From contig NZ_CP134779.1 of the NCBI RefSeq assembly GCF_031884435.1, positions 5,892,501 to 5,956,500 of the forward strand: DNA of 64,000 bases, read 5' to 3'. The first letter of the stretch is position 1. Every line of letters starts with the position of its first letter. Source of the stretch: Bosea sp. 685 (lineage in GTDB: Bacteria; Pseudomonadota; Alphaproteobacteria; Rhizobiales; Beijerinckiaceae). Positions 45,237 through 63,973 of this stretch are shown piece after piece. The position numbers and the translations under genes are program-made. Below the pieces are notes generated by a model. That model was not told the origin of the DNA. It searched no databases and was given only the letters and a program-made list of their open reading frames with translations.

Positions 45237-45262
45237 ACCCGAGACGAGAGGATATTCGAGAT

Positions 45263-45988
45263 ATGTCGAGCCTGCAGAAGACAGGTCTGGTGATCACCGC
45301 CCATCCCGGCGATTTCGTCTGGCGGGCCGGCGGTGCGATCGCGCTCCATGCCAAGCGCGGCTTCCGCGTAAAAATCCTCTGCCTCTCCTATGGCGAGCGC
45401 GGCGAGAGCCAGTTCGCCTGGAAGAAGGCGGGCGTGAAGATGGAAGACGTCAAGGCGCAGCGCCGCGACGAGGCCGAGCGCGCCGCCGCGATCCTCGGCG
45501 CCGAGATCGAGTTCATGGATGCCGGCGATTATCCGCTGCGCACCACGGAAGCCATGCTCGACCGTGCGATCGACATCTTCCACGAGCTTGGGCCGAGCTT
45601 CGTTCTGACCCACGCGCTCGAAGACCCCTATAATGTCGACCATCCCGAGGCGACGCGCTTTGCCCAGGAGGCGCGGATCATCGCCCAGGCGGCCGGCCAC
45701 AAGCCCGATCCGGAGCGGGCCTATGCCGCCCCGCCCCTCTTCCTGTTCGAGCCGCACCAGCCCGAGCAGTGCAATTTCAAGCCGAACGTGATCCTCAACA
45801 TCGACGAAGTCTGGGAGGCGAAGCGCCAGGCCTTCGAGATCCTCGCCGCCCAGAAGCACCTCTGGGAGTACTACACCCGCGTGGCGCTGAACCGCGGCAT
45901 GCAGGGCGGGCGCAATTCCGGCAAGGCCATGACCTATGGCGAAGCCTATCAGCGGCTCTTCCCCGAAGCGCTGGAGGCGCTGGCATGA
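45263..45988 (+). CDS. galB: 4-oxalomesaconate hydratase, PIG-L/LmbE type (GalB)
   Basis: Zinc hydrolase-fold protein of 241 residues. The first metal motif is [15 protein letters not shown]; the loss of the second acidic residue of the usual AHPDDE and the DFVWRAGG stretch are, from memory, typical of GalB-like hydratases. Further conserved segments are LSYGERGES and [15 protein letters not shown]. GalB adds water to 4-oxalomesaconate, giving 4-carboxy-4-hydroxy-2-oxoadipate. The ATG at 45263 is preferred; an ATG at 45233 overlapping the galD stop is an alternative. Overlaps galC by four bases. Confidence 0.85.
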
Positions 45989-46674
45989 CCCCCGTCGTCA
46001 TTCGCACCAACAAGCGCGCCGCCACCTCCGACATCGCTGCTCTCGCCGAGCTCGGCGTCTCCACAACCCATGAGGCGATGGGGCGCAGCGGGCTGCTGAA
46101 GCCCTATATGCGGCCGATCTATCCAGGAGCCTTCATCGCCGGCTCCGCCGTCACCGTGCTGGCGCAGCCCGGCGACAACTGGATGATCCATGTCGCGATC
46201 GAGCAGGTGAAGCCGGGCGATGTCCTCGTCGTCGCCTGCACCACCGACAACACCGACGGCATGTTCGGCGACCTGCTCGCGACCTCGCTCAAGGCCCGGG
46301 GCGGCGTCGGTCTCGTCATCGATGCCGGCGTGCGCGATGTCCGCGTGCTCACCGAAATGGGCTTCCCGGTCTGGTCGCGGGCGATCTCGGCCAAGGGCAC
46401 GGTCAAGGCGACGCCGGGCAGCGTCAATATTCCCGTCATCTGCGCCGGCGCGCTCATCCATCCCGGCGACGTGATCGTCGCCGATGATGACGGCGTCGTC
46501 GTGGTGCCGCGCCTGGATGCAGCGACGGTCGCTGCCGCCGCCCGCAAGCGCGAGGCGAATGAGGAAGAGAAGCGGCGGCGCCTGGCGGCGGGCGAGCTCG
46601 GCCTCGACATGTATGCGATGCGCGAGGGGTTGGCGAAGGCGGGCCTCGTCTATCGCGACGATCCGGAAGGGTGA
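45985..46674 (+). CDS. galC: 4-carboxy-4-hydroxy-2-oxoadipate aldolase (RraA-like)
   Basis: RraA-fold protein of 229 residues. The motifs [37 protein letters not shown] (key residues) and VIDAGVRDV match class II HMG/CHA aldolases (GalC/LigK), where GD..AT and R(D) bind a divalent metal and substrate. The reaction splits the C6 acid into pyruvate and oxaloacetate, the last step of the pathway. The 4-base overlap with galB shows co-translation. RraA itself (RNase E inhibitor) is shorter and lacks this context. Confidence 0.87.
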
Positions 46675-46678
46675 GGCG

Positions 46679-47533
46679 ATGCTGACGATCCTGTTCGACG
46701 GCGTGGCTTATGGGATGCTGCTGTTCATCCTGGCTTCGGGCCTGGCCGTGACGCTCGGCCTGATGAACTTCGTCAACCTGGCCCATGGCGCCTTCGCCAT
46801 GGCTGGCGGCTATGTCACGGTCGTGCTGATGCAGCGCTACGATGTACCCTTCGTCGCGACGCTACCTTTCGCTTTCCTGGTGCCGGCCGCCATCGGCGCT
46901 GTGCTGGAGCGGACGATCTACCGGCCGATGTATGCCAAGAGCCATCTCGACCAGGTGCTGTTCTCGATCGGCCTCGTCTTCATGGTGGTGGCGGCGGTCG
47001 ACTACGTCATGGGCTCGCAGCAGCAGCTCATCCGCCTGCCGGCCTGGCTGCAGGGCCGCTTCGACATCGCCGGCATCGGCATCGGCCGTTACCGCAGCTT
47101 CGTGATCGCGATCTGCATCGTCCTGACCATCGCACTCCAATATGTGCTGGTGCGGACGCGCTTCGGCAGCCGCTTGCGCGCGGCGGTGGACGACCAGCAG
47201 GTGGCGCGCGGGCTCGGCATCAATGTCGGCGTGATCTTCTCGCTGACCTTCGCCGTCGGCTCGGGCCTTGCCGGGCTTGGCGGGGCGCTCGGGGTCGAGA
47301 TGCTCGGGCTCGACCCGACCTTCCCACTCAAATTCATGATCTACTTCCTGATCGTCGTGACCGTGGGCGGCCGCTCGGGCCTGACCGGGCCGTTCACTGC
47401 TGCGCTGCTGATCGGCGTCGTCGATGTCGCCGGCAAATATTACGTGCCCCAGCTCGGCGCCTTCCTGATCTACGCCTTGATGGTCGCGGTGCTGTTCCTG
47501 CGCCCGCAAGGCCTGTTCGCGGTGGCGCGATGA
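46679..47533 (+). CDS. Branched-chain-type ABC permease, LivH-like
   Basis: Membrane permease of 284 residues with eight or so hydrophobic segments. The start GVAYGMLLFILASGLAVTLG and NFVNLAHGAFAMAGGYV are diagnostic of LivH. Starts four bases after galC and overlaps livM by four bases, so it is in the same operon. Confidence 0.92.
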   Translation: MLTILFDGVAYGMLLFILASGLAVTLGLMNFVNLAHGAFAMAGGYVTVVLMQRYDVPFVATLPFAFLVPAAIGAVLERTIYRPMYAKSHLDQVLFSIGLVFMVVAAVDYVMGSQQQLIRLPAWLQGRFDIAGIGIGRYRSFVIAICIVLTIALQYVLVRTRFGSRLRAAVDDQQVARGLGINVGVIFSLTFAVGSGLAGLGGALGVEMLGLDPTFPLKFMIYFLIVVTVGGRSGLTGPFTAALLIGVVDVAGKYYVPQLGAFLIYALMVAVLFLRPQGLFAVAR

Positions 47534-48554
47534 CCATGGCTCTCGATACGCCGCGTCCGGCGCTGAGCGATCTGGTCGGCAAGACCCTGTTGCGGCGGCG
47601 GCGCTGGAAACTCGGCGAGGTCGTCTTCTGGAGCCTCACAGCTGCGGCCCCCTTCATGCTCCCGCGCGGCATGCTGCTCCTGAACGAGGTTGCGATCCTG
47701 GCGCTGTTTGCCCTGTCGCTCGACCTGATCCTCGGCTTCGCCGGCATCGTCTCGCTCGGCCATGCCGCCTTCCTCGGCGCGGGCGCCTATGCGGCTGGGC
47801 TCTTCGCCCTGCATGTCAATGCCGACCCGCTCACGGGGCTCGTCGTGGCCGTGCTCGCAGCGGCGCTGCTCGGCTTTCTCACCAGCTTCCTCGTCCTGCG
47901 AGGGACCGATCTGACACGGCTGATGGTGACGCTGGGCATAGCCCTGCTGCTGTTCGAGCTCGCCAACAGCTTCAGTGCGATCACCGGCGGTGCCGACGGC
48001 CTGCAGGGCATCAGCATGGGCCCGCTGCTCGGGCTGTTCCCCTTCGACCTGCAGGGGCGGACGGCCTATCTCTACTCGCTGTCGGTCCTGTTCGTCCTGT
48101 TCCTGGTGGCGCGGCGGATGATGGCCTCCCCTTTGGCCTGTCGCTGCGTGCGATCCGCGACAACCCGCTGCGCGCCTCGGCGACGGGCGTCGCGATCAAC
48201 GGCCGGATCGTGATAGTCTATACGATCGCCGCTGCCTATGCGGGCGCTGCCGGCGCGCTGATGGCCCAGACGACGCAGTTCGTTTCGCTCGACGTGCTGG
48301 AGTTCCATCGCTCGGCCGATCTGATGCTCGTCGTCATCATCGGCGGCGCTGGCTGGCTCTATGGCGGCATCATCGGCGCCATCCTGTTCAAGGTGCTGCA
48401 GGACGCGATTTCGCTGGCGACACCGCAATACTGGCAGTTCTGGATCGGTCTCCTGCTCGTCGTCTTCGTGCTCGGCGGTCGGGAGATCCTCCACGGCCTG
48501 CTGGCCAGGTCGCGCGCGGCACTAGCGAAGCTCATCTCACGGAGAGCGCCATGA
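47530..48554 (+). pseudogene. Branched-chain-type ABC permease, LivM-like, with a frameshift
   Basis: Would be a 341-residue permease. The first part (to about 48130) encodes LALFALSLDLILGFAGIVSLGHAAFLG, and the second, in another frame, encodes GLSLRAIRDNPLRASATGV, IVYTIAAAYAGAAGALMAQ and the LivM C-terminus, ending in overlap with livG. The break is at a run of four C (48128-48131); one more C gives ASPFGLSLRAIRDNP. The span of 1025 bases is one short of a multiple of three. The rest of the operon is intact, which suggests a sequencing error or a very recent mutation. Confidence 0.88.
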
Positions 48555-49306
48555 GCGCACCGGCGCTTCAGACCATCGGGCTGGTCAAGCGTTTCGGCGG
48601 GATCGTCGCGACCAACGACGTCTCGCTCACGATCGAACGCGGCGCCCGCCACGCGCTGATCGGCCCCAACGGCGCCGGCAAGACGACGCTCGTCAACCAG
48701 CTCACCGGCGTGCTCAAACCCAGCGAAGGCAGGATCCTGCTGGAGGGGCGCGACATCACCACGGCCAAGCCGGAAGCGCGCGTGCGCCTCGGCATGAGCC
48801 GGACTTTCCAGATCAACCAGCTCTTCCAGTCGATGACGCCGCTCGACATGCTGCTGCTCGTCCTCTGCGAGCAGCAGCATGTCGGGCTGAAGCTCTGGCA
48901 GAAGCTGGACAAGAGCGGCGATCTGGCGCGGGAGGCGGCTGCGATCGCCGAGCGCTTCCGGCTCGACGACGTGATCGAGGAGCGGATCGCGACCTTGCCC
49001 TATGGCAAGCAGCGGCAGCTCGAGATCGCCGCCGCCTTCGCCGCCCGGCCGCGCCTGCTCCTGCTCGACGAGCCGGCAGCCGGCGTGCCGGAGGCCGAAC
49101 GCCGCGACCTGCTCGCAACCGTCGCCGATCTTCCCGCCGATGTCAGCGTGCTCCTGATCGAGCACGACATGGACCTCGTCTTCCGCTTCGCGACCCGCAT
49201 CACCGTGCTCGTCAACGGCACGGTCATCGCTGAGGGAACACCGTCCGCCATCGCGGCCGATCCTGCCGTACGCGCTGCCTATCTCGGGGAGAGCCTCGAT
49301 GCCTGA
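48551..49306 (+). CDS. Branched-chain-type ABC ATPase, LivG-like
   Basis: ATPase of 251 residues. Walker A GPNGAGKTT at 38-46, the modified signature LPYGKQRQLEIAAA, Walker B LLLLDEPAAG and switch His in IEHDMD. This modified signature (YG instead of SGG) is normal for LivG. The 4-base overlap with livM and 8-base overlap with livF mark one operon. Confidence 0.92.
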   Translation: MSAPALQTIGLVKRFGGIVATNDVSLTIERGARHALIGPNGAGKTTLVNQLTGVLKPSEGRILLEGRDITTAKPEARVRLGMSRTFQINQLFQSMTPLDMLLLVLCEQQHVGLKLWQKLDKSGDLAREAAAIAERFRLDDVIEERIATLPYGKQRQLEIAAAFAARPRLLLLDEPAAGVPEAERRDLLATVADLPADVSVLLIEHDMDLVFRFATRITVLVNGTVIAEGTPSAIAADPAVRAAYLGESLDA

Positions 49307-50033
49307 CCTCTTCTCCATCACCGGCCTGTGCGCGGGCTATGGCGAGGCGGCGATCCTGCATGATGTCAGCCTCTCGCTCGGAGAGGGCCGCTCGCTCGCG
49401 CTGCTCGGCCGCAACGGCGTCGGCAAGACCACGCTGATCAACAGCATCGTCGGCGTCACCCGCCGGACGGCAGGCGAGATCAATCTCGGCGGCGTCGCGC
49501 TGACGCGGCTCAAGCCCGAGCGCCGGGCGCTCGCCGGCATCGGCTGGGTGCCGCAGGAGCGCAACATCTTCCGCTCGCTGACGGTGACCGAGAACCTGAC
49601 GGCCGTCGCCCTGCCCGGCCCTTGGACGCCGGAGCGCGTCTTCGCGATGTTTCCGCGCCTGGCCGAGCGCAAGCGCAATCTCGGCCATCAGCTGTCCGGC
49701 GGCGAGCAGCAGATGCTGGCGATCGGCCGCGCGCTCGTGCTGAACCCAAAACTCCTCCTGCTCGACGAGCCGACCGAAGGCCTGGCGCCAATCATCGTCG
49801 AGGAACTGCTCAGGGCGTTGAAGCGGATCTTCATGGAAGAGAGGATTTCAGGGATCATCGTCGAGCAGCACGCCCAGAAGATCCTGAAGATGACCGACGA
49901 CGCCATCATCATCGAGCGCGGACGGGTGGTGCATGCGGCGCCCAGTGCGACGCTGCTCGCCGACCCCGCTACGCTGCAACGCTATCTCGGCGTGACGCAT
50001 CAGGCCGGGCCGCCATCCGACCGCGCCGCCTAG
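49299..50033 (+). CDS. Branched-chain-type ABC ATPase, LivF-like
   Basis: ATPase of 244 residues. Walker A GRNGVGKTT at 37-45, signature LSGGEQQM, Walker B LLLLDEPTEGLAP and IVEQHAQK, the LivF pattern. Last transporter gene of the cluster; the extradiol dioxygenase gene follows after 86 bases. Confidence 0.92.
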   Translation: MPDLFSITGLCAGYGEAAILHDVSLSLGEGRSLALLGRNGVGKTTLINSIVGVTRRTAGEINLGGVALTRLKPERRALAGIGWVPQERNIFRSLTVTENLTAVALPGPWTPERVFAMFPRLAERKRNLGHQLSGGEQQMLAIGRALVLNPKLLLLDEPTEGLAPIIVEELLRALKRIFMEERISGIIVEQHAQKILKMTDDAIIIERGRVVHAAPSATLLADPATLQRYLGVTHQAGPPSDRAA

Positions 50034-50119
50034 GCGCTTCCAATCGCAACCACCGGCTCGAACGAGCACGATCAAAAGCAGGCCGCAGCGATGGCCAAAG
50101 ACCAGCGGGAGCAGATGCC

Positions 50120-51085
50120 ATGAAGCCGGAACCGATCCACGACATCGCCCATCTCGCGCATGTCGAACTCCTGACCGACAAGCCCGAGGCCAGCCTCGAC
50201 TTCTTCGTCAATATCTACGGCCTGACCGAAGCTGGCCGCGAGGGCGACAGCGTCTATCTGCGGGCCTGGGACGATTACGAGTTCCACACGCTGAAGCTGA
50301 CGGCGGCGAATACCACCGGCGTCGGCCATATCGGCTACCGCGCGACGAGCGAGCAGGCCCTCCTGCGGCGGGTCGCAGCGATCGAGGCGCTCAGTGCCGG
50401 CATCGGCTGGGTCGAAGGCGATCTCGGCCATGGCCGCGCCTTCCGCTTCCGCGACCCGGACGACCACATCTTCGAGATCTATTTCGACACCCACAAATAC
50501 GTCGCGCCGCCCCAGGAAAAGCCGGCCCTGAAGAACCAGCCGCAGCGCAACCATGGCCGGGGCTGCGCCGTGCGCCGCCTCGACCATCTCAACCTGCTGG
50601 CGCGCGATGTCGCGGCGATCCGCGATTTCCTGCCGAAAGCGCTGGGCAGCCGCGTCACCGAGCAGATCGTGCTCGATTCAGGCGAGGTCGGCGGCTGCTG
50701 GTTCACGGTCAACAACAAGAGCTACGACATCGCCTATACGCGCGACCACACCGACAGCCTGGGCCGCTTCCACCATGTCACCTATGCGGTCGACCAGCGC
50801 GAGCATGTGCTGGAAGCCGCCGATATTTTCCTCGAGAACGGCGTCTTCATCGAGACCGGGCCGCATAAGCATGCGGTGCAGCAGACCTTCTTCCTCTACG
50901 CCTATGAGCCGGCGGGCAACCGCGTCGAGATCGCCAATGCCGGCGCACGCCTGATCCTCGATCCCGACTGGCAGACCGTGACCTGGACCGAAACCGAACG
51001 GAAGAAGGGGCAGGCCTGGGGGCTGAAGACGATCGAGAGCTTCCACACCCATGGCACCCCACCCGTGCCGACAGCGGGACATTGA
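50120..51085 (+). CDS. Type I extradiol dioxygenase, catechol 2,3-dioxygenase-like
   Basis: Two-domain VOC protein of 321 residues, about the size of catechol 2,3-dioxygenase. The N-terminal domain has HLAHVELLTDKPEASLDFF and REGDSVYLRAWDDYE, close to XylE-type enzymes. The C-terminal domain carries the predicted Fe(II) ligands His156 (RLDHLNLL), His219 (FHHVTYAV) and Glu270 (NRVEIAN), plus Tyr260. Ribosome site GGGAG eight bases before the ATG. By family it opens the ring of a catecholic compound next to a hydroxyl group. It lies in the galD-galB-galC island, but gallate and protocatechuate are normally opened by unrelated type II enzymes, so its own substrate is unclear. Confidence 0.85.
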   Translation: MKPEPIHDIAHLAHVELLTDKPEASLDFFVNIYGLTEAGREGDSVYLRAWDDYEFHTLKLTAANTTGVGHIGYRATSEQALLRRVAAIEALSAGIGWVEGDLGHGRAFRFRDPDDHIFEIYFDTHKYVAPPQEKPALKNQPQRNHGRGCAVRRLDHLNLLARDVAAIRDFLPKALGSRVTEQIVLDSGEVGGCWFTVNNKSYDIAYTRDHTDSLGRFHHVTYAVDQREHVLEAADIFLENGVFIETGPHKHAVQQTFFLYAYEPAGNRVEIANAGARLILDPDWQTVTWTETERKKGQAWGLKTIESFHTHGTPPVPTAGH

Positions 51086-53946: not shown

Positions 53947-56900
53947 TCAAGCGTCGAGGACGAGATCGGTCAATGGCACCGCCTGGCAGGTCAGGCATTG
54001 CCCGTCCTCCAGATCCGAACAGTCGACGAGATGGCGGACCTGCCCCTGCTTGATCGACACGAGACAGCTCTCGCATTGCCCGACGCGGCAGCCGCTAGGC
54101 ACGGTCAAGCCAGCCCCCTCGGCCAGCGCCAGGATGCTGCCGAGCGGCGCATCCGGCGACCAGGTCACGGTCTTGCCCGAGCGGGCGAAGGCTATGCTCC
54201 GCGGCTTGAGCCCGTCCAGGGCCGGCGGCTCGGGAGAGCGGAAGCGCTCGGTGAAGATCTCGAAGGCGGGGACGCCGCGGGCCTTCAGCCCGGCGCCGAC
54301 CTCCGCCATCATCGCATCGGACGCGCAGATATAGACTCGCGCACGCTGCGAAAGCAGCTCCGCATCGATATCGGCTGCGGTGAAACGGCCTTGCCGATCG
54401 AAACGGTCGCCATCCACCGGCCGGCTGAGATGCGACATCAGCTTCAGGTTCGGCAGACGCTGCCGCAGCACCTCCAATCGCTCCCGGAAGGGCTGGCTGT
54501 CGCCATCGCGGCAACCGTAATGCAGCGTGATCTCAGGCTCGTCCGCCCCGCCTTCCAGCGTTTCGAGATAGGACAGGAACGGCGTGATGCCGATGCCGCC
54601 GGCAATCAGCACGATCGGGAATTCGTTGCGTATGGGCAGGACGAAGCCGCCCTTCGGCGCCTGCAATTCGACCGTATCGCCGGGAGCAAGCTCGCGCCGG
54701 ATCGCCCCCGAAACCTGCCCGCCCTCGATATGGCGGACCGCGATCCGATAGGCCTCCGGCTGCGCCACCGCCGGTCCGATCAGGGAATAGGAGCGCGTCG
54801 CGCCGGCCACGCGCAGCCCGACATATTGGCCAGGCCGGAAGCCAGGCAAAGGACGGGCGTCGACGGGGTTAAGCGTCAGCGCCACGACCTCGCCGGCCTC
54901 CTCGCGACGCTCAGTGACGACGAAGGACCGCCATCCCGACCAGGGGGCGGCCTCGTGGCGCTCGACATCGCAGGCGAAGGAGCGCAGCGCCAGGGAGCCG
55001 CTGAGCGGGTCGCGCTCGCTTTCGGAAATGATCGCATTGAAGCTCCCGCCGATCGGGCTCGCCGCATCCGGCAGATAGCCGGGCAAACCGAGATCGGGCG
55101 CCGGCTGCCACCAGCCATAGTCGCTGGCGACCACATCCTCGGCGAGCGCATCGTTCAGCGCCACGCGCAGCCTGATCTGGCCCTTGCGCGTGCGCACCAG
55201 CATCCAGTCGCCCTCTCTGATGCCTTTGCGGCGCGCGAGTTCGGGATGGATCTCGGCCGTCGGCTCCTGGCGCTTGCGACGGAGTGCCGTGATGCCGCGA
55301 TGCTGGCTATGGCAGAAATAGCCGCTATTGGCGGAGAAGAGCGTGAGCGGGAACGCCTCGCTGCGCTGTTCGGCCGGTGCGACGAAGCGGGGCACCGCCG
55401 GGTAGCCATGGCGGTACAGCAGCTCCGAATAGAGCTCCGCCTTGCCGGTCTGCGTCGCGAAACCGGTCTTGCGATATTTCCGGTGGCTATGCGGCAGCGG
55501 GATGCGGATGCCCTCGGGCTTGGCGCGCAAGGTCGCGAGATCGAGGCCGAGCGGGGCGAGGAGATGGGCAAAGCCCTTCTCGATATCGCCGTCGAAGAAC
55601 AATTCGCCCATGCCCAAACGCTTGGCGAGCTGGAAGACGATCCACATGTCGGAGCGCGCCTCGCCCTGGCGCGGGATCATCTGTGGGCGAAGCTGGACCA
55701 GCTCCTGCGCCTCGGGCGAGATCTCGAAGCCGAGCCTGAGCGCCTCATGCTCCCACGGGCTCGAGACCGGCAGCACGATATCGGCCATCTCGGCGGTGGG
55801 GTTGAGGAAGAGGTCGCAATGGACCTGGAAGTCGAGCGCCTTCAGCGCCTCGCGCCCACGCTCCGGCGCCGGATGCGAAACCAGGAGATTGGAGCCGAAG
55901 GTGAGGAGCGCGCGAATGCGATAGGGCTTCGCCGAGAGGGCCGCATCGTAGAAATCGCTGGAGGTGATCCAGCCATCGGCAGGCGGGCCGATTGGACGCT
56001 CGCTCAGGCCGAGCGCCTTCGCCCTGGTCTCGGGCGGGATCATTGCCATCGCATGCAGCGCCGGCACCGGCAGGGCCGGCATCCGGACATTGCCGCCGGG
56101 CGCATCGAAATGGCCGGTCAGCGCGTAGAGCGTCGCGATCGCGCGCTCGGTCTGCGCGGCGTTGGTATGCTGCCCGATGCCGGTCCAGCCGTGATAGCTG
56201 ATCGAGCCGGCGGCAGCGATCGCGCTGGCCAGCTCCTCGACCTGGGCCGCGGGAATCCCGGTGATGCGCTCGACACTCGCCGGATCGTAGTCAGCCGTCG
56301 CGGCAACGTAATGGTCAAAGCCAGTGCGACACGCGATCAAACAGCCGGGGGCTGCGACCTCGAAGCGCCCTTGCAACGCCGCTCCGGCGAGCCCGTTTTC
56401 TGCCGAGACAGCCTTCGCCTGAGCCGCATCCCAGACCAGGAAACCATCGCCTTCCAAGCCGAGATCCGCCGGGCGCAGGAAGAGACCGTCATCCTCCCGC
56501 ACCAGGAAAGCGGCGTTGGTCCAGTGCCGCACGAAATCGGCGTCATAGGCGCGATTGACGATGAGCCAGCGCGCCAGCCCAAGCGCCAGCACGGCATCGG
56601 TGCCGGGTTGGATGCGCAGCCAGAGATCGGCGTCGCGCCCCGAACCCGCCCGGCGCGGATCGATCACGGCGAGCCGCGCGCCTTTCGCCCGTGCCGCGCC
56701 GATCGCCTCGGCCTGGGCAAGCCAGACATTGGCAGGGTTGTGGCCCCAGAGCAGGATCAGCTCGGAGTTGCGATAATCGGCCGTCGGCAGCCCGCAGCCG
56801 AAGGTGAAGACGTGGGCGTGGTCCTTGTGCCAGTTGCAGATCTCGGTCGAGAACACGGTGTTGGGGCTGCCGAAGCCGCGCACGAAGCGTTGCAGCCAGT

Positions 56901-57264
56901 CGATGCTGTCGGAGGTCGAGGAGGACGAGCCCGAGGTGATGGCGAAGGCGACCGATTCCGGGCCGGTCTCGGCGCGATAGCGGCCAAGCTTCCCGGCGAT
57001 CTCCGTCAGGGCCTCGTCCCAGGAGATCGGCACGAAGCCCGGATCGGCCGCACCTTTGGGCGCGGTGCGGCGCAATGGCGTCTTCAGGCGGCGGGCGGAA
57101 TGGGCGATCTCCGGCGCGGCGCGGCCCTTGGGGCACATCGCCTTGCCGGTGGGATGAGCGGGATTGGGCCTGACGGCGACGAGGCGATCATTCTCGACAA
57201 CATTGATCGTGCCGCAGCGCGAGCGGCAGAGCGTGCAGAAGCCGGGTTTCTCAAGCGTCGCCAT
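53947..57264 (-). CDS. Molybdopterin oxidoreductase fused to FAD/NAD reductase and 2Fe-2S ferredoxin
   Basis: Single 1105-residue cytoplasmic protein without signal peptide. (1) Residues 1-760: a DMSO-reductase-family module with a 4Fe-4S site (Cys10, 13, 17, 44), the probable Mo ligand Cys143 (STEICNWHKDHAHVF) and a C-terminal dinucleotide-binding domain. (2) About 785-1020: a flavohaemoglobin-like reductase with FRPGQYVGLRV, RSYSLIG (FAD) and IAGGIGITPFLSYLE (NAD(P)). (3) About 1030-1105: a plant-type ferredoxin with Cys1059, 1064, 1067 and 1093. The order implies electron flow from NAD(P)H to FAD, 2Fe-2S, 4Fe-4S and Mo, so a self-sufficient reductase is likely. Its substrate is unknown. 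Neighbours are an ornithine-cyclodeaminase-like gene (26 bases upstream), a cupin regulator and a branched-chain-type importer. Confidence 0.92.
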   Translation of the reverse strand: MATLEKPGFCTLCRSRCGTINVVENDRLVAVRPNPAHPTGKAMCPKGRAAPEIAHSARRLKTPLRRTAPKGAADPGFVPISWDEALTEIAGKLGRYRAETGPESVAFAITSGSSSSTSDSIDWLQRFVRGFGSPNTVFSTEICNWHKDHAHVFTFGCGLPTADYRNSELILLWGHNPANVWLAQAEAIGAARAKGARLAVIDPRRAGSGRDADLWLRIQPGTDAVLALGLARWLIVNRAYDADFVRHWTNAAFLVREDDGLFLRPADLGLEGDGFLVWDAAQAKAVSAENGLAGAALQGRFEVAAPGCLIACRTGFDHYVAATADYDPASVERITGIPAAQVEELASAIAAAGSISYHGWTGIGQHTNAAQTERAIATLYALTGHFDAPGGNVRMPALPVPALHAMAMIPPETRAKALGLSERPIGPPADGWITSSDFYDAALSAKPYRIRALLTFGSNLLVSHPAPERGREALKALDFQVHCDLFLNPTAEMADIVLPVSSPWEHEALRLGFEISPEAQELVQLRPQMIPRQGEARSDMWIVFQLAKRLGMGELFFDGDIEKGFAHLLAPLGLDLATLRAKPEGIRIPLPHSHRKYRKTGFATQTGKAELYSELLYRHGYPAVPRFVAPAEQRSEAFPLTLFSANSGYFCHSQHRGITALRRKRQEPTAEIHPELARRKGIREGDWMLVRTRKGQIRLRVALNDALAEDVVASDYGWWQPAPDLGLPGYLPDAASPIGGSFNAIISESERDPLSGSLALRSFACDVERHEAAPWSGWRSFVVTERREEAGEVVALTLNPVDARPLPGFRPGQYVGLRVAGATRSYSLIGPAVAQPEAYRIAVRHIEGGQVSGAIRRELAPGDTVELQAPKGGFVLPIRNEFPIVLIAGGIGITPFLSYLETLEGGADEPEITLHYGCRDGDSQPFRERLEVLRQRLPNLKLMSHLSRPVDGDRFDRQGRFTAADIDAELLSQRARVYICASDAMMAEVGAGLKARGVPAFEIFTERFRSPEPPALDGLKPRSIAFARSGKTVTWSPDAPLGSILALAEGAGLTVPSGCRVGQCESCLVSIKQGQVRHLVDCSDLEDGQCLTCQAVPLTDLVLDA

Positions 57265-57290: not shown

Positions 57291-58271
57291 TCAGGATGCC
57301 GCGCGGGCCATCCCCGGCGTCGGTTCACCCGCAAGCAGGGTCGCCGCCGCGAGATCCTCAATCGCGGCGCCCACGGATTTGAACAGCGTGATCTCGCCCG
57401 CGGCGAGGCGGCCGGGTTTCGTGCCGCTCGTCAACTCGTGCAGATCGCCGCAGATCGCCTCGGCCTGCCAGCGGCCGGACGCAATCGGCTGCAGCAGGTC
57501 GCCGGCCTCGGCGAGCGCGCCGGCGTAGGTGTCGACGAAGACGCGGCTGCGCGCGAGCGCCTCGTCATCGCTCTCGCGCATCTGCGGCGTGAAGGCGCCG
57601 ACGAGATCGAGATGCGTGCCTGGCCGGAGATCTCGCCCCATGACCAAGGGCTCGCGCGAGGTGGTGGCGCAGCTGACGATGTCCGCCAGCGCGAGCGCCG
57701 CCGGCAGATCGGTGACGGGGGTGGCGTCGAAGCCCTGGCGAGCGAGCACCCCGGCAAGCGCCAGTGCGCGCTGCGGATGGCGCCCCCAGACCAGGACCTT
57801 GTCGATCGGTCGCACGGCCCGGTGCGCGGCCGGCAGATGTGCCGCGACATGCCCGGTTCCGACCAGGAGCAGCGTGCGGCTGTCAGGGCGCGAGAGATAG
57901 CGCGAGGCGAGCGCGGAGGCCGCCGCCGTGCGCCGGTTGGTCAGCGCTTCGCCATCGACCAGCGCCCGAGGCTGGCCGGTCTCCCCGTCGAACAGCACGT
58001 AGATCGAGGAGATCGCGCCCAGACCGCGCGCAGCGTTCTGAGGGAACGCCGTCACGAGCTTGACGCCCAGTGCCTTGCCGCGCTCCCAGGCCGGCATGGT
58101 CAGCAGATGGCTCGGCTGGCCGGTCAGGCCGACTTCGTAGCTCTGCCGGACCGGCATCGCCTCGCCGCCGCGGCGGAACGCCTCGCCCAGGGCTTCGATC
58201 AGCCGGGGATAATCGAGCGCGGCCTCGACCTCCGAAGCGGAATAATGGTGCAGCACGGCAGGTGTCCTCAT
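57291..58271 (-). CDS. Ornithine cyclodeaminase/mu-crystallin family protein
   Basis: NAD(P)-binding protein of 326 residues. The Rossmann motif is LLLVGTGHVAAHL (about 133-145), and the substrate region has GVKLVTAFPQN (Lys near 69) and HLDLVGAFTPQMRE. The family includes ornithine cyclodeaminase, alanine dehydrogenase (archaeal) and imine reductases, so reductive amination or cyclic-imine chemistry is likely. The ATG at 58271 is used; an open extension into the regulator gene is unlikely. It sits between the regulator and the molybdoenzyme fusion and appears to be co-transcribed with both, possibly acting on the same compound. Confidence 0.85.
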   Translation of the reverse strand: MRTPAVLHHYSASEVEAALDYPRLIEALGEAFRRGGEAMPVRQSYEVGLTGQPSHLLTMPAWERGKALGVKLVTAFPQNAARGLGAISSIYVLFDGETGQPRALVDGEALTNRRTAAASALASRYLSRPDSRTLLLVGTGHVAAHLPAAHRAVRPIDKVLVWGRHPQRALALAGVLARQGFDATPVTDLPAALALADIVSCATTSREPLVMGRDLRPGTHLDLVGAFTPQMRESDDEALARSRVFVDTYAGALAEAGDLLQPIASGRWQAEAICGDLHELTSGTKPGRLAAGEITLFKSVGAAIEDLAAATLLAGEPTPGMARAAS

Positions 58272-58278
58272 GGCCTGG

Positions 58279-58959
58279 TCATTCAAGCGCGGTGATGCCG
58301 GTGCAGATCCAGAGGATCTCGGCATCCTCCTCGCTCAGCGAAACGACAGCGTGGCCCATCTTGCTGTCGAAATAGGTGCTGTCGCCGACCTCGAGCACGA
58401 CCGGCGAATAGAATTCGGTGAAGACCTGAACGCGGCCCGAGAGCACGCAGAGGAACTCCTCGCCCTCATGGCGCACCCAGCCGGGGAAATCGTCGAGGCT
58501 GCGCGCCGTCACCCGCGCCTTGAAAGGCAGGATCTGCTTCTGCGAGAGATCGGTCGCCAGCACCTCATAGCGATAGGCTCCGGTGAGATGCGGCTTGCCC
58601 TCGCCGCGCTTGGTCACGCTGCGCCGCCCGAAGGGCGCGTTCTGGCGGCGCGCATCGAATAATTCGACGATGTCGAGCCCGGTGCCGCGCGTGATCTTCT
58701 GCAGCACGTCATAGGTCGGCGACATCTGGCCGTTCTCGATCTTCGAGAGCGTCGAGCGCGCCACGCCGGTACGCTGGCTGACATCCTCGAGCGTCCAGCC
58801 ATTGTCGACGCGCATGCGCTTCAGCCGCAGGCCGAGATCGACCGGGCTGTCCTCGGCCCTGGCCTCTGCGGCCGAGAACCGGGCCGGCATCGCGGTCGCC
58901 GCCAGAGTGGCCGCGTCGCTGAGGCCGGACCGGATCGCATTCTTCTTCGTCACAGGCAT
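58279..58959 (-). CDS. XRE-family regulator with C-terminal cupin
   Basis: Regulator of 226 residues: an N-terminal tail, a helix-turn-helix (about 42-97; LKRMRVDNGWTLEDVSQRTG, SRSTL-like recognition helix) and a cupin domain (about 150-222; HEGEEFLCVLSGRVQVF, VGDSTYFDSKMGHAVVS) likely to bind a small ligand. It starts at a 20-bp direct duplication that also contains a second, out-of-frame ATG. The cyclodeaminase-like gene follows after seven bases. By family and position it probably controls the 53947-58959 operon. Confidence 0.9.
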   Translation of the reverse strand: MPVTKKNAIRSGLSDAATLAATAMPARFSAAEARAEDSPVDLGLRLKRMRVDNGWTLEDVSQRTGVARSTLSKIENGQMSPTYDVLQKITRGTGLDIVELFDARRQNAPFGRRSVTKRGEGKPHLTGAYRYEVLATDLSQKQILPFKARVTARSLDDFPGWVRHEGEEFLCVLSGRVQVFTEFYSPVVLEVGDSTYFDSKMGHAVVSLSEEDAEILWICTGITALE

Positions 58960-59028: not shown

Positions 59029-60258
59029 TCATTTCTTTACGAGCGGGCATTCGCTCTGGGCGAGAGGCAGGAAGGCCTGATCGCCGGGAACGGTCGCCAG
59101 CACGTCATAATAGTCCCAGGGCGCCTTGGATTCGGAAGGCTTCTTGACCTGGACGAGCAGCATGTCGTGCACCATGCGGCCATCCTCGCGGAGCTTGCCG
59201 TTCTTGGCGAAGAAATCATTCACCGGCAATTCCCGCATCTTGGCGGAGACAGCCTTCGCCTCGTCGGTGCCGGCGGCCTGGATCGCCTTGAGATAATGCA
59301 TGACCGAGGAGTAGACGCCGGCCTGCAATGCTGTCGGCATCGCCTTGCGAGCCTCGAAGAAGCGCTTGGCGAAGGCCCGCGTCTCGTCATTCTGGTTCCA
59401 GTAGAAGCCTTCGATGAAGGAAATGCCCTGCGCGGTCGGCAGGCCGAGCGCGTGCACGTCGGAGATGAACATCACCGGGGCGGTGAGGATCTGCCCGCCG
59501 GCGGTGACGCCGAACTCATTGGCCTGCTTGATCGCGGTGGTCATGTCCTTGCCGGCGGTCGCCAGCATGATGACCTTGGCCTTCGAGGCCTGGGCCGGCA
59601 GCAGGAAGGCCGAGAGATCAGTCGCGCCGAAGGGATGGCGGATGGTGCCAACGACCTTGCCGCCATTGGCCTTGATCGCTTCGGTCGCGATCTTCTCCAA
59701 GGAATGGCCGAAGGCGAAGTCAGCCGTGATGATGAAGAAGGTGTCGTTGCCCTTGTCGATCAGGGCCTTCACCGGGCCGACCGCGTTGGAATAATTGTCG
59801 TAGACCCACTGGACGCCGGTCGGCGAGCACTGCTTGCCGGTGAGATCGGTGGTGCCGGGCGAGGAGAACAGCGCGACGCGGTTGGTCTCGCGAGTCAATT
59901 GCTGCACGGCGAGCGCGATCGCGCTGTTGGTGACGTCGGAGATCGCGTCGACCTTCTCGTTCTCGATCCAGCGCCGCGCGATGCCGACGCCGACATCGGC
60001 CTTGTGGAGATGGTCGGCGCCAATGATCTCGATCGGCTTGCCCAGCACCGTGCCGCCGAAATCGGCCGCGGCCATCTGCGCTGCGAGCAGCGAGCCCGGC
60101 CCGTTCATGTCGGACCACTGCCCGGACATGTCGGTCAACACGCCGATCTTGACGACGTCGTCGCTGATCTGCGCCGAGGCCTGCCCCGCCAGGCCAAGCG
60201 AGCCGAGGCAGAGCGCGGCCGCAAGCCCGCGCATGAGATTGAAAGCGGTCAGTTGCAT
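59029..60258 (-). CDS. Branched-chain-type ABC substrate-binding protein (LivK-like)
   Basis: Exported binding protein of 409 residues with a Sec signal ending near residue 30 (ASAQ). The mature part starts VVKIGVLTDMSGQWSDMNGP and contains FGHSLEKIATEAI, the usual LivK pattern. The ATG at 60258 follows AGGGGA; an upstream open extension is not used. It belongs to the importer at 60373-63845. The ligand may be the compound handled by the molybdoenzyme and cyclodeaminase-like proteins next to it, as inference. Confidence 0.9.
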   Translation of the reverse strand: MQLTAFNLMRGLAAALCLGSLGLAGQASAQISDDVVKIGVLTDMSGQWSDMNGPGSLLAAQMAAADFGGTVLGKPIEIIGADHLHKADVGVGIARRWIENEKVDAISDVTNSAIALAVQQLTRETNRVALFSSPGTTDLTGKQCSPTGVQWVYDNYSNAVGPVKALIDKGNDTFFIITADFAFGHSLEKIATEAIKANGGKVVGTIRHPFGATDLSAFLLPAQASKAKVIMLATAGKDMTTAIKQANEFGVTAGGQILTAPVMFISDVHALGLPTAQGISFIEGFYWNQNDETRAFAKRFFEARKAMPTALQAGVYSSVMHYLKAIQAAGTDEAKAVSAKMRELPVNDFFAKNGKLREDGRMVHDMLLVQVKKPSESKAPWDYYDVLATVPGDQAFLPLAQSECPLVKK

Positions 60259-60372
60259 CGTCGGTCCCCTTGTTGTCCGGTCCTGTTCGGCCGGGTTTTG
60301 CTTGAGCCTTGTTTGATTGAGCCTTGGCCGGGCCCAGTTGAGCAGCCCGGTTTCCTCATCGGACATCATGTC

Positions 60373-62286
60373 TCATTCAGCGGGTGCCGCTGCCGGAGTT
60401 TGCCGAGCCGCGTCCGCTGGCGGCGACGCCTGGCTCCGGCGATGCCAGAACTCGATCAGCTCACCGACGATGCCGCGCCGGAAGGCGAGCACGCAGAGCA
60501 CGAAGATCAGCCCGTGGATGACGGTGACCCATTGCCCGAGCGCAGCCAGATAGTTCTGCATGGCAACCACGATGAAGGCGCCGACGACCGGGCCGTAGAG
60601 CGTGCCCACGCCGCCAAGGAAGGTCATCAGCAGGATTTCGCCAGACATCGACCAATGCGCGTCGGTCAGGCTCGCGATCTGGCTGACGATTGCCTTGGTC
60701 GAACCGGCGAGGCCCGAGAGCGCCGCCGATAATGTGAAGGCAACGAGCTTGTAGCGGCTGGTCTCGAAGCCGAGCGACTGCGCCCGGGGCTCGTGATCGC
60801 TGATCGCCTTCAGCACCCGGCCGAAGGGCGAGCCGACGAGCCGCATGATCAGGAGGAAGCCGCCAAGGAAGATCGCCAGCACGAAGGCGTAGAGATTGGC
60901 CGGCCTGGAGAGGTCGACGAACCCGAACAGCAGGCCGCGCGGCACGCCTTGCAAGCCATCCTCGCCGCCGGTGAAGGGCGCCTGCAGCGCGACGAAATAG
61001 ATCATCTGCGCGAAAGCCAGCGTCACCATGGCGAAATAGATGCCGCTGCGGCGGATCGCGAGCCAGCCTGAGGCGAGCCCAAGCAGCGCCGCCGTCGCGG
61101 TTCCCGCCAGGATCGCCAGTTCCGGTGTCAGCCCCCAGATTTTGGCGGCATGGCCGCAGACATAGCCGGCCGAGCCGAGGAACATCGCATGGCCGAAGGA
61201 GACGAGCTTGCCGTAGCCGGCGATCAGGTTGAAGGCGCAGGCGAAGAGCGCGAAGATCATCGCCTTCATCATGAAGCCGGGATAGATCACCAGCGGCGCG
61301 GCCGCGAGGCAGGCGGCAACCGTCAGGAAGACGAGCGTCTGCGTGCGGGCCGAAGGCGCAGGTGCCGAAAGCGAGGCCTGCTGATGGCCCCCAGCGGCTT
61401 CCGGCTTCGAACCGAACAGCCCGGCCGGGCGGATCAGCAGCACCACCGCCATGACGACGAAGACGACCGTGCTCGACAATTCCGGATAGAACGCCTTGGT
61501 CAGGCCCTCGATCAGGCCGACGAGGAAGCCGGTCACGATCGAGCCCATGATCGAGCCCATGCCGCCGATCACCACGACCGCGAAGACGACGATCAGGAGA
61601 TCAGCGCCCATGGTCGGGCTGACCTGATAGATCGGCGCCGCGAGCACGCCGGCCAGCGCCGCCAAAGCGACGCCGGCGCCATAGGTCAGCATGATCATGC
61701 GCGGCACGCGGATGCCGAAGGCCTGGACCAGCATCGGGTTCTCGGTCGCCGCGCGCAGATAGGCGCCGAGCTTGGTGCGCTCGATCACGTACCAGGTGGA
61801 GAGACAGACGACGAGCGAGACCAGGATGACCCAGGCTCGGTAGTTCGGCAGGAACATGAAGCCGAGATTGCGCCCGCCGGTCAGCTCGGCCGGGATCGCA
61901 TAGGGCTGGCCCGACGCGCCGAACCAGTTGCTGAAGGCCCCTTGCACCATCAAGGCAAGCCCGAAGGTCAGCAGCATGCCGTAGAGATGGTCGAGCTTGT
62001 AGAGCCGCCGAAGCAGCAGCCGCTCGATCACGACGCCGGTGAGCCCGACCGCCAATGGCGCGAGCAGGAGCGCCCACCAATAGCCGATGCCGAGAAAGTT
62101 CAGCAGCAGCCAGGCAACGAGCGCGCCCATCATGTACTGCGCGCCATGGGCGAAGTTCACGATGTTCATCATGCCGAAGATCACCGCCAGGCCGAGGCTC
62201 AGCATGGCGTAGAAGGCGCCGTTGATCAGGCCGAGCAGGAGCTGGCCGTAGAGGACCGCGGACGGGATGCCGAAGATCGTGGTCAT
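60373..62286 (-). CDS. Fused LivH-LivM branched-chain-type ABC permease
   Basis: One 637-residue membrane protein combining both permeases. Residues 1-300 are LivH-like (GLINGAFYAMLSLGLAVIFG, NFAHGAQYMMGALVAW) and about 330-620 are LivM-like (ALFACAFNLIAGYGKLVSFG, SPFGRVLKAISDHEPRAQSLG). A roughly 25-residue Ala/Ser/Pro-rich linker (about 300-325) joins them. The ATG at 62286 precedes the conserved start; an open frame extends upstream into livF without support. Such fusions exist in other proteobacteria; here the other importer in the window keeps the two genes separate. Confidence 0.92.
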   Translation of the reverse strand: MTTIFGIPSAVLYGQLLLGLINGAFYAMLSLGLAVIFGMMNIVNFAHGAQYMMGALVAWLLLNFLGIGYWWALLLAPLAVGLTGVVIERLLLRRLYKLDHLYGMLLTFGLALMVQGAFSNWFGASGQPYAIPAELTGGRNLGFMFLPNYRAWVILVSLVVCLSTWYVIERTKLGAYLRAATENPMLVQAFGIRVPRMIMLTYGAGVALAALAGVLAAPIYQVSPTMGADLLIVVFAVVVIGGMGSIMGSIVTGFLVGLIEGLTKAFYPELSSTVVFVVMAVVLLIRPAGLFGSKPEAAGGHQQASLSAPAPSARTQTLVFLTVAACLAAAPLVIYPGFMMKAMIFALFACAFNLIAGYGKLVSFGHAMFLGSAGYVCGHAAKIWGLTPELAILAGTATAALLGLASGWLAIRRSGIYFAMVTLAFAQMIYFVALQAPFTGGEDGLQGVPRGLLFGFVDLSRPANLYAFVLAIFLGGFLLIMRLVGSPFGRVLKAISDHEPRAQSLGFETSRYKLVAFTLSAALSGLAGSTKAIVSQIASLTDAHWSMSGEILLMTFLGGVGTLYGPVVGAFIVVAMQNYLAALGQWVTVIHGLIFVLCVLAFRRGIVGELIEFWHRRSQASPPADAARQTPAAAPAE

Positions 62287-62314
62287 GGCGCCTCTTGTTC
62301 CTGTCGACAGCCGC

Positions 62315-63016
62315 TCAAAGGCCGAGATAGCCCTTGAGCGCGCCGAGCCGGTTCTCCAGCTCGCCGCCCGGGATTTCCTCGACGACACGGCCGAGTTCGA
62401 CGACGTAGTGCCGATCGGCGAGCTGCGAGGCGAAGCCGACATTCTGCTCGACCAGCAGGATGGTGAAGCCCAGCCTCTTGAGCTGGACGATGGTGCGGCC
62501 GATCTGCTGGATGATGACCGGCGCCAGCCCCTCGGTCGGTTCGTCCAACAGGAGGATGCGCGCGCCGGTGTGCAGGATGCGCCCGAGCGCCAGCATCTGC
62601 TGCTCGCCGCCCGAGAGCTTGGTGCCCGGGCTGTCGAGCCGCTCCTCCAGATTGGGGAACAGGGTCAGGATCTGGTCGATCGTCATGCCGCCATTGGCGA
62701 CCTTGGGCGGCAGCAGCAGATTCTCGCGCACGCTGAGGCTGGAGAAGATGCCGCGCTCCTCGGGGCAGAAGGCGATGCCCTTGCGGGCGATGTCGTAGGG
62801 GGCGGCCGCGATGATCTCGCCGCCATCGAGCCTGATCGAACCCGCCCGCTTGTCGAGCAAACCCATGATCGCCTTGAGCGTCGTCGTCTTGCCGGCGCCG
62901 TTGCGCCCGAGCAGCGTCACCACCTCGCCGGCCCGGACGGTGAAGTCCATGCCGTGCAGAACCTGCGATTCGCCGTACCAGCCTTCGAGGCGATTGACGG
63001 TAAGGGTCTCAGCCAT
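62315..63016 (-). CDS. Branched-chain-type ABC ATPase, LivF-like
   Basis: ATPase of 233 residues. Walker A GRNGAGKTT at 37-45, signature LSGGEQQM, Walker B ILLLDEPTEGLAP, VEQNVG. Overlaps the end of livG by eight bases and is followed 28 bases later by the fused permease gene. Confidence 0.92.
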   Translation of the reverse strand: MAETLTVNRLEGWYGESQVLHGMDFTVRAGEVVTLLGRNGAGKTTTLKAIMGLLDKRAGSIRLDGGEIIAAAPYDIARKGIAFCPEERGIFSSLSVRENLLLPPKVANGGMTIDQILTLFPNLEERLDSPGTKLSGGEQQMLALGRILHTGARILLLDEPTEGLAPVIIQQIGRTIVQLKRLGFTILLVEQNVGFASQLADRHYVVELGRVVEEIPGGELENRLGALKGYLGL

Positions 63017-63845
63017 GTGCCTGCCCCGGATGCGCCTGCCCCGTATAGGCCGCCATCACATCGGGCCGCGCCGAGACCTCGGCATAGCTCCCTTCCGCCA
63101 GGATCTCGCCGCGCACCATTACGGTGATCCTGTCGGCGAGCTCGGCGACCACGTTCATGTTGTGCTCGACGAGCAGAACCGTGCGGCCCTGCCCGGCCTC
63201 GCGGATCAATTGCGTCACCCGCCCGATATCCTCGCGCCCGAGCCCGGCCATCGGCTCGTCGAGGAGCAAGACCTTCGGCTCCAGCGCCAGCGTCGTGGCG
63301 AGCTCCAGCACGCGCTTGCGGCCATAGGAGAGGTTGCCGGCCATGGTCTGCGCCTGGTCGGCAAGGCCGAAGCGCTCCACGAGCGCGTCCGCCTGTTCCG
63401 AGACACCGCGCCGGCTGGAAATCCGCCCGAGCAGGTTCCAGGCGAGGCCGCTCGCGCGCAACAAAGCGAGCTCGACATTCTCGCGCACCGTCAGCCCCGC
63501 GAACACCGCCGAGATCTGGAAGGAGCGCACCACGCCGCGCTTGGCCATTGCCGGCATGGCCAGGCGCGTGACGTCCTCGCCGTCATGCAGGATCGCGCCC
63601 GCGGACGGCATGAGATATTTCGTCAGGAGGTTGAACAGCGTCGTCTTGCCCGCGCCATTGGGGCCGATGACGGCATGCATGCTGCCCTTAGCAAGCCGGA
63701 AATTCACATCCCGCACGGCGAAGAAGCCACCGAATTCGCGGCTCAGGCCATGGGCCTCCAATGCGTTGCCAGTGCCGTGTTTTAACGCGTTTTCTTCACG
63801 CGAACCGGTACCCACTTCGCTCGAAAACGCTCCAGTGCCGTCCAT
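63009..63845 (-). CDS. Branched-chain-type ABC ATPase, LivG-like; start uncertain
   Basis: ATPase with Walker A GPNGAGKTT, the LivG-type signature LSYGRKRVLELA, Walker B VLLLDEPMAG and VEHNMN. Similarity to the family begins at LEAHGLSREFGGFFAVRDV. No ATG lies there: the frame upstream runs through a dispersed repeat (63780-63833) to an ATG at 63845 and a TTG at 63866. Starts at 63845 (used here) or at a TTG at 63761 just after the repeat are both possible; the first would add about 28 repeat-encoded residues. The repeat is normally intergenic, which favours the later start. Confidence 0.85.
   Translation of the reverse strand: MDGTGAFSSEVGTGSREENALKHGTGNALEAHGLSREFGGFFAVRDVNFRLAKGSMHAVIGPNGAGKTTLFNLLTKYLMPSAGAILHDGEDVTRLAMPAMAKRGVVRSFQISAVFAGLTVRENVELALLRASGLAWNLLGRISSRRGVSEQADALVERFGLADQAQTMAGNLSYGRKRVLELATTLALEPKVLLLDEPMAGLGREDIGRVTQLIREAGQGRTVLLVEHNMNVVAELADRITVMVRGEILAEGSYAEVSARPDVMAAYTGQAHPGQAHG
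63780..63833 (-). repeat. Dispersed intergenic repeat, copy D
   Basis: On the minus strand it reads GGAGCGTTTTCGAGCGAAG, GGTACCGGTTCGCGTGAAG and AAAACGCGTTAAA, matching copies at 25354-25445 and 32606-32705. It overlaps the apparent 5' end of the livG reading frame. Confidence 0.8.
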
Positions 63846-63973
63846 TCCCCACGCCCACCTTCGCAAAGAACCAGCCTACGAAGGGGAACGTGGAACCAAA
63901 GTTTCCTATCGTCAACAAATTCCACTATGTCGACGGCCTGGATTTTAGGCTGCGTGATCAAGCGCGCGGCAGA

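Follow-up and report, generated by a model that had tools for sequence, protein, structure and literature searches.

Within a window of 64,000 nucleotides from Bosea sp. 685 (contig NZ_CP134779.1, positions 5,892,501 to 5,956,500), a single gene encodes a molybdoenzyme fused to its own reductase module. We put at about one half the probability that this protein is a cytoplasmic, NAD(P)H-driven reductase carrying molybdenum (Mo) or tungsten (W) bound to bis(pyranopterin guanine dinucleotide) (bisPGD), and that its product is a cyclic ketimine acid, which is then reduced to proline or pipecolate. With this reading, a widespread molybdoenzyme family that has no matching curated model gains a concrete hypothesis, the product being predicted from recurring partner genes. 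If true, it would add a new entry into proline and pipecolate metabolism.

Architecture of the fused protein

By its Pfam domains and fold, the protein is a member of the MopB (dimethyl sulfoxide reductase) superfamily of Mo- or W-bisPGD enzymes. Its Fe4S4, Molybdopterin, and Molydop_binding domains all score above the Pfam cut-offs. Cys143 lies in the loop EICNWHKD and is invariant in 40 of 40 aligned relatives; acetylene hydratase has its Cys region at this place in the alignment, which points to Cys143 as the Mo ligand. Across relatives it is followed by Asn, Gly, or Thr and then by Trp-His. Arg14, which sits in the first Fe-S loop, is present in at least 90% of the same 40 sequences. The reductase module is of the phthalate dioxygenase reductase type, with a flavin adenine dinucleotide (FAD) domain containing RxYS, an NAD domain, and a C-terminal plant-type 2Fe-2S domain with four cysteines. 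The initial annotation had described this combination in one chain of 1105 amino acids, and Pfam searches and alignment bear it out, with all the cysteines it had named in place.

The modules and ligands can be read from the sequence, and the direction of electron flow is predicted from the domain order and the conserved ligands. Electrons would pass from NAD(P)H through FAD, 2Fe-2S, and 4Fe-4S to Mo. The initial annotation had suggested such a route inside one chain and a cytoplasmic location. The location is supported and the route is probable; the enzyme may also work without a partner protein, as suggested there. Similar modules are found in phthalate dioxygenase reductase, PaaE, flavohaemoglobin reductases, and self-sufficient P450s (CYP116B); in the fused protein, its electrons would go to a molybdenum site. 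Like the self-sufficient P450s, a one-chain molybdenum reductase would be handy for biocatalysis. Because unfused relatives with the Mo module only also exist, other electron donors can presumably serve this module.

Recurring partner reductase and carrier

The main clue to the product comes from the genes adjacent to the fused gene in relatives. The loci, which do not sample the family at random, were collected as the best matches to the fused protein, including the best 80 of 237 confirmed stretches in named genomes. The 122 matched rows, less 9 unfused ones and with at least 2.5 kb required on either side, gave 103 fused loci; short 1.5-kb loci had been excluded beforehand. Two of the 103 (L106 and L143) are copies split across frames. 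A partner was called when a protein encoded within 6 kb of the Mo gene scored at least 100 bits to a ketimine-acid-reductase query.

Such a reductase is found, across phyla, at 55 of the 103 loci, always on the same strand as the Mo gene (55/55), and in 46 of the 55 it lies 11-126 bp from it. About 1% would be expected by chance, judging from six ornithine cyclodeaminase (OCD) family genes over the cut-off in one genome of 6.8 Mb. By best query, 52 partners are PRK06141-like OCD proteins, two are LhpI-like, and one is a DpkA-like Ldh_2 protein. The three kinds correspond to reductases annotated for Delta1-pyrroline/piperideine-2-carboxylate (PRK06141, PyrPipCarbRedLhpI, and DpkA). When 12 partner OCD proteins were scanned, 11 scored above the PRK06141 cut-off and the remaining one (L064) above the LhpI model instead; the L071 partner is 91% identical to the latter. 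Merging six same-locus or near-identical pairs gives a reductase at 54 of 97 loci, and an earlier locus set gave 54 of 100 for OCD alone.

A short-chain-fatty-acid-type carrier is also found at 60 of the 103 loci, and carrier and reductase occur together at 39. Three of three carriers scanned reached Pfam SCFA_trans and none of the three reached the TIGR00366 cut-off. When the loci are grouped at 80% identity, the reductase occurs in one or more members of 28 of 58 groups, and the carrier in one or more members of 33 of 58. At L126, an Ldh_2-type gene is found 50 bp after the carrier gene, and its nearest solved relative is 1wtj, a Delta1-piperideine-2-carboxylate reductase. Of the hints that the reaction itself is conserved, and not only the neighbor, this replacement of the usual partner by a different superfamily with the same annotated activity is the strongest, though it comes from a single locus.

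Genes of proline catabolism are found near the Mo gene in some relatives. In Zobellella (L095), PutA (1452 bits, cut-off 747) is encoded 1.9 kb upstream on the opposite strand, separated from the Mo gene by two regulator genes. In Rhodococcus (L101 and L034, the latter the same locus as L135), proline dehydrogenase and Delta1-pyrroline-5-carboxylate (P5C) dehydrogenase are encoded 5-8 kb from the Mo gene. Matches to the PutA query in L025, L055, L084, L090, L100, L107, L116, and L144 are partial and of the aldehyde dehydrogenase type, and were not counted as PutA.

Proposed reaction and candidate substrates

The gene order, partner, and carrier are observed; the product and physiological role predicted from them are as follows. 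A small acid would be imported by the linked Liv system or, in many relatives, by the short-chain-fatty-acid-type carrier. Mo(IV) would reduce it to, or to one step from, Delta1-pyrroline-2-carboxylate or Delta1-piperideine-2-carboxylate. The partner reductase would then convert this cyclic ketimine acid to L-proline or L-pipecolate, which would enter ordinary catabolism. Known routes to cyclic ketimine acids use dehydratases or flavin oxidases/dehydrogenases. PMC5144071 describes 3-hydroxyproline dehydratases; there, LhpI names one such dehydratase and not the NCBIfam reductase.

Candidate substrates include pyrrole-2-carboxylate, which needs two electrons to give Delta1-pyrroline-2-carboxylate, and picolinate, which needs four. 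Others are a cyclic nitrone or N-hydroxy acid, by N-O removal, and a hydroxylated pyrroline, by reductive dehydroxylation. The carrier type favors a monocarboxylate. Pyrrole-2-carboxylate is the boldest candidate and the best fit to both a monocarboxylate carrier and a pyrroline product. The enzyme would then be aerobic and use NAD(P)H to reduce the ring of pyrrole-2-carboxylate, or in some relatives perhaps of picolinate, to the cyclic ketimine. Together with the partner, this would make a two-step route from a nitrogen heteroaromatic acid by way of Delta1-pyrroline-2-carboxylate to L-proline. This specific form is tentative, and we lean against it. If it holds, a new type of ring reduction would be known in biology, one that runs on ordinary NAD(P)H. 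A decarboxylase acting on pyrrole-2-carboxylate, HudA, is the subject of PMC7976604.

A partial parallel is offered by the reductive urate pathway, whose Mo enzyme XdhD belongs to the xanthine oxidase family. In this pathway, as described in PMC12990295, the NADH-fed Mo reductase XdhD-YgfM acts on an N-heterocycle and an NAD(P)H-dependent dearomatisation follows. An NADH-driven Mo reductase for an N-heterocycle is what the two systems would share. The pathway differs in that the dearomatising step is assigned there to the iron-sulfur dehydrogenase YgfK. The fused protein resembles acetylene hydratase and, via it, the catechol dehydroxylases (PMC7028382), so that it may act on rings. The fused protein differs from acetylene hydratase (2e7z) and the related catechol dehydroxylases in having Arg14 at the Asp place and an attached reductase module.

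Several observations weigh against the proposed cyclic ketimine product. The reductase is missing within 6 kb at 48 of the 103 fused loci, and 27 loci lack both it and the carrier. In Amycolatopsis (L042, L053, L058, and L060), NADP-glutamate dehydrogenase is encoded directly after the Mo gene instead. Siculibacillus L022, 84% identical and nearest to the Bosea protein by tree, has none of the window's neighbors; the only OCD match in its genome (E<=1e-40) is 50% identical and lies outside the fetched stretch. Bosea itself has a second fused protein (C2:3794901-3798248; L002 and L107), 48% identical, with no ketimine reductase within 6 kb and, by eye, an adjoining four-gene polyamine-type ATP-binding cassette (ABC) importer. 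The DpkA-like case is one locus (L126), where the top-scoring NCBIfam models belong to different Ldh_2 dehydrogenases and their cut-offs are missed. The names of the partners come from profile cut-offs or similarity, and such reductases can be broad. Different substrates in different branches are possible.

Alternative functions

The fused protein matches 45 NCBIfam models, and none of the 25 shown reaches its cut-off. The best is formate dehydrogenase TIGR01591 (258.7 bits, cut-off 666.25). Formate dehydrogenase was rejected, since this cut-off is missed and Cys143 is followed by Asn, Gly, or Thr rather than by the His that follows Sec (selenocysteine) or Cys in its active-site loop. In acetylene hydratase, the catalytic residue is Asp13 of the first Fe-S loop; Arg14 aligns with this Asp, and acetylene hydratase was set aside. 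Nor does the protein fit the S- and N-oxide reductases (DmsA, BisC, and TorA type). Their profiles remain below cut-off (124 vs 1017.55 bits for TIGR00509 of the BisC family; 169.2 vs 777.7 for TIGR02166), and Cys is found at the ligand place, where BisC and TorA have Ser.

Like NasC and NasA, the fused protein has a MopB module with an N-terminal 4Fe-4S cluster and a cytoplasmic location. NasC and NasA receive electrons from NAD(P)H via a flavoprotein or ferredoxin. A reductase of nitrate or another inorganic oxyanion with this supply built in would agree with the Cys-ligated MopB fold and with weak matches to the NasC and NapA profiles. Perchlorate, arsenate, and nitrate reductases are among its structural neighbors in a VIA-align list, in which the absence of a family does not exclude it, and a Paracoccaceae plasmid record names one relative (H23) nasC. 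Such a function is very improbable, however. The scores are 172 bits for NasC (cut-off 1100) and 105.7 for NapA (cut-off 904), and the recurring neighbors are organic-acid carriers and ketimine reductases. Nitrate is an unlikely job for the fused enzyme because the same genome has a separate nitrate-assimilation-type cluster, at C2:4.25 Mb, about 1.7 Mb away. This cluster encodes, by another gene, a NasA-like Mo protein (405.6 bits for NasC, below cut-off; 442.6 for the formate dehydrogenase model), as well as a NirA-family reductase that clears its cut-off of 523 with 968.6 bits and a NirB-like flavoprotein that, at 350 bits, does not reach its own. The NasC cut-off alone is not decisive because this NasA-like protein misses it as well. 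By profiles, neighbors, and the separate cluster taken together, a nitrate reductase was rejected. The initial annotation had likewise preferred an N-containing organic substrate to nitrate, and the protein did not prove to be of a known nitrate reductase type.

Enzymes of this Mo family usually work by oxygen abstraction. The enzyme might accordingly remove the N-O oxygen of a cyclic nitrone, an N-hydroxy amino acid, or a 2-oximino acid to give an imine, to be reduced to the amino acid by the partner (OCD, DpkA-like, or glutamate dehydrogenase). This would account for both OCD and glutamate dehydrogenase as partners, but it is doubtful. The slot is filled by three kinds of reductase annotated for cyclic ketimines, and a general oxime reductase would have no need of such partners. 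No adjacent gene was recognized for N-oxygenated acids (most neighbors are unannotated), and no natural source was identified. For the specific N-oxide or hydroxylamine named in the initial annotation, no positive evidence was found. Somewhat less probable, and in our judgment rather unlikely, is a family of several substrates in which the reductase partners mark only some branches and the link in the window may be local history. The 27 loci with neither reductase nor carrier, the several importer types among loci, and the copper/heavy-metal gene setting in Klebsiella p17277A_477 all favor it. The PRK06141 partner does lie 26 bp upstream in the window, however, and 11 of the 15 loci in its clade keep it within 100 bp. 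Finally, the same gene set would serve the reverse direction, in which an NAD(P)+-linked enzyme would dehydrogenate a cyclic amino or imino acid (e.g., making pyrrole-2-carboxylate or inverting D-proline via the ketimine) and the carrier would act as an exporter. The best NCBIfam match being formate dehydrogenase is consistent with this. We regard it as improbable, since FAD-NAD-Fer2 modules in this order normally oxidise NAD(P)H, and the PutA and P5C dehydrogenase neighbors in two lineages point to catabolism.

Distribution and origin of the fusion

Of 7995 candidates scored, 1685 proteins were retained at E<=1e-50. Among the matches listed, 117 of 120 have all of PF00384 (Mo), PF00175 (NAD), and PF00111 (Fer2), the exceptions being P0034, P0037, and P0071. 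Because the architecture recurs in this way and one origin fits the tree, the fusion is not an assembly artefact. P0037, a single predicted chain of 1311 amino acids, has an OCD domain ahead of its Mo module. Since it lacks Fer2 and diverges from the family at its C-terminus, it may be an error and was given no weight. Confirmed fusion stretches fall in Pseudomonadota and Actinomycetota, so that the rarity implied earlier is not upheld, and the initial annotation stands in part: for architecture, electron route, location, non-nitrate substrate, and neighbors, but not for rarity or the N-oxide/hydroxylamine. As far as the open-licence literature shows, the family is widespread yet uncharacterised; no paper was recognized in open-licence PMC on this fusion or on a Mo enzyme feeding a pyrroline-2-carboxylate reductase.

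The presence of the fused gene is patchy. At E<=1e-100 it is found in 10 of 61 relative genomes (10/37 of its own genus and 0/24 others), the query or center genome being counted in these tallies where it is part of the sample. At 1e-80, 5 of 398 genomes sampled from the phylum and 10 of 289 from the class have a match; at 1e-200, so do 2 of 201 and 10 of 250 genomes of two other families and 10 of 58 of one genus. In the class sample, the nine matches from other genomes extend over the Mo part of the query only. The stretches fetched for eight of these nine, two of them 5-kb contigs, gave no match to a reductase domain. At a Variovorax plasmid locus (L105), a reductase domain (25% identity) is encoded by the separate next gene.

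In a FastTree tree of 122 rows including one outgroup, with "fused" meaning a reductase-domain match within the same locus, the 112 fused rows are explained by one change (support 73). A single 100% clade holds 109 of them and three divergent fused rows fall outside. The seven unfused rows need three changes, and some deep forks are weak. The EICNWHKD loop is retained in seven of nine unfused relatives. Two sister Mo-only proteins, L111 (616-3009) and L114 (8645-11071), have a second loop type, ELCGWGRY. Another unfused Mo protein, L109 (8721-12319), adjoins an Ldh_2 protein with 342 bits for the malate/lactate/ureidoglycolate dehydrogenase model (cut-off 336) and 2g8y as its nearest solved relative. 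In L120 (of the window's own genus), L106, and L143, the gene copies are split across frames, which may reflect gene decay or sequencing errors.

Gene neighborhood in the window and in relatives

The fused gene is the last of a closely spaced minus-strand set (Table 1).

Table 1. The fused gene and its linked genes, in window positions
Feature	Position	Strand	Basis
Fused molybdoenzyme, 1105 aa; 4Fe-4S, Mo-bisPGD, FAD, NAD(P), and 2Fe-2S modules	53947..57264	minus	Pfam, alignment, fold
OCD/mu-crystallin family reductase, NCBIfam PRK06141 (Delta1-pyrroline-2-carboxylate/Delta1-piperideine-2-carboxylate reductase)	57291..58325	minus	profile
XRE-type helix-turn-helix and cupin_2 regulator	58279..58959	minus	domains; retained at 10/15 clade loci
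Periplasmic substrate-binding protein, Liv/Urt type (Peripla_BP_6)	59029..60369	minus	domain/profile
Fused LivH-LivM-type permease (BPD_transp_2, two stretches)	60373..62442	minus	domain/profile
LivF/UrtE-type ATPase	62315..63016	minus	domain/profile
LivG/UrtD-type ATPase	63009..63866	minus	domain/profile

Its order is LivG, LivF, LivHM, LivK, XRE-cupin regulator, OCD-family gene, and Mo fusion. The OCD protein scores 399.6 bits for PRK06141 (cut-off 322), and 6t3e, a Delta1-pyrroline-2-carboxylate reductase, ranks second among its nearest solved relatives. Its translation may actually begin at residue 19, an ATG codon. The annotated start of the permease is probably too long because its open reading frame overlaps the next gene. 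At 10 of the 15 loci of the window's clade, the OCD, regulator, and LivK genes are all retained (60-84% identity), which supports the initial annotation on this point.

In the same clade, a DAO protein whose nearest model is the L-pipecolate oxidase AmaA, below its cut-off, is found at 9 of 14 loci. A PDB search with it gave no match at 1e-30, and Bosea has a 59% identical relative elsewhere in the genome. At L090, MoaA is encoded after the carrier gene.

Near-identical fused copies on one long branch are found in distant genera at L102 (Klebsiella plasmid p17277A_477), L076, and L080. The annotation upstream of L102 includes CueR-type regulators, P-type ATPases, and LpxC. L076 and L080 have gene clusters in common with L102, which suggests the same copper/heavy-metal setting for them. 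None of the three has a ketimine reductase within 6 kb, and their role may differ.

Elsewhere in the window, positions 44121-51085 hold a second Liv-type importer (by eye) with a 4-oxalomesaconate tautomerase (517 bits, cut-off 440). Other reading frames there resemble, by eye, ring-cleavage and aldolase-type genes, and this region, near the Mo operon, is probably an aromatic cluster of the meta-cleavage type.

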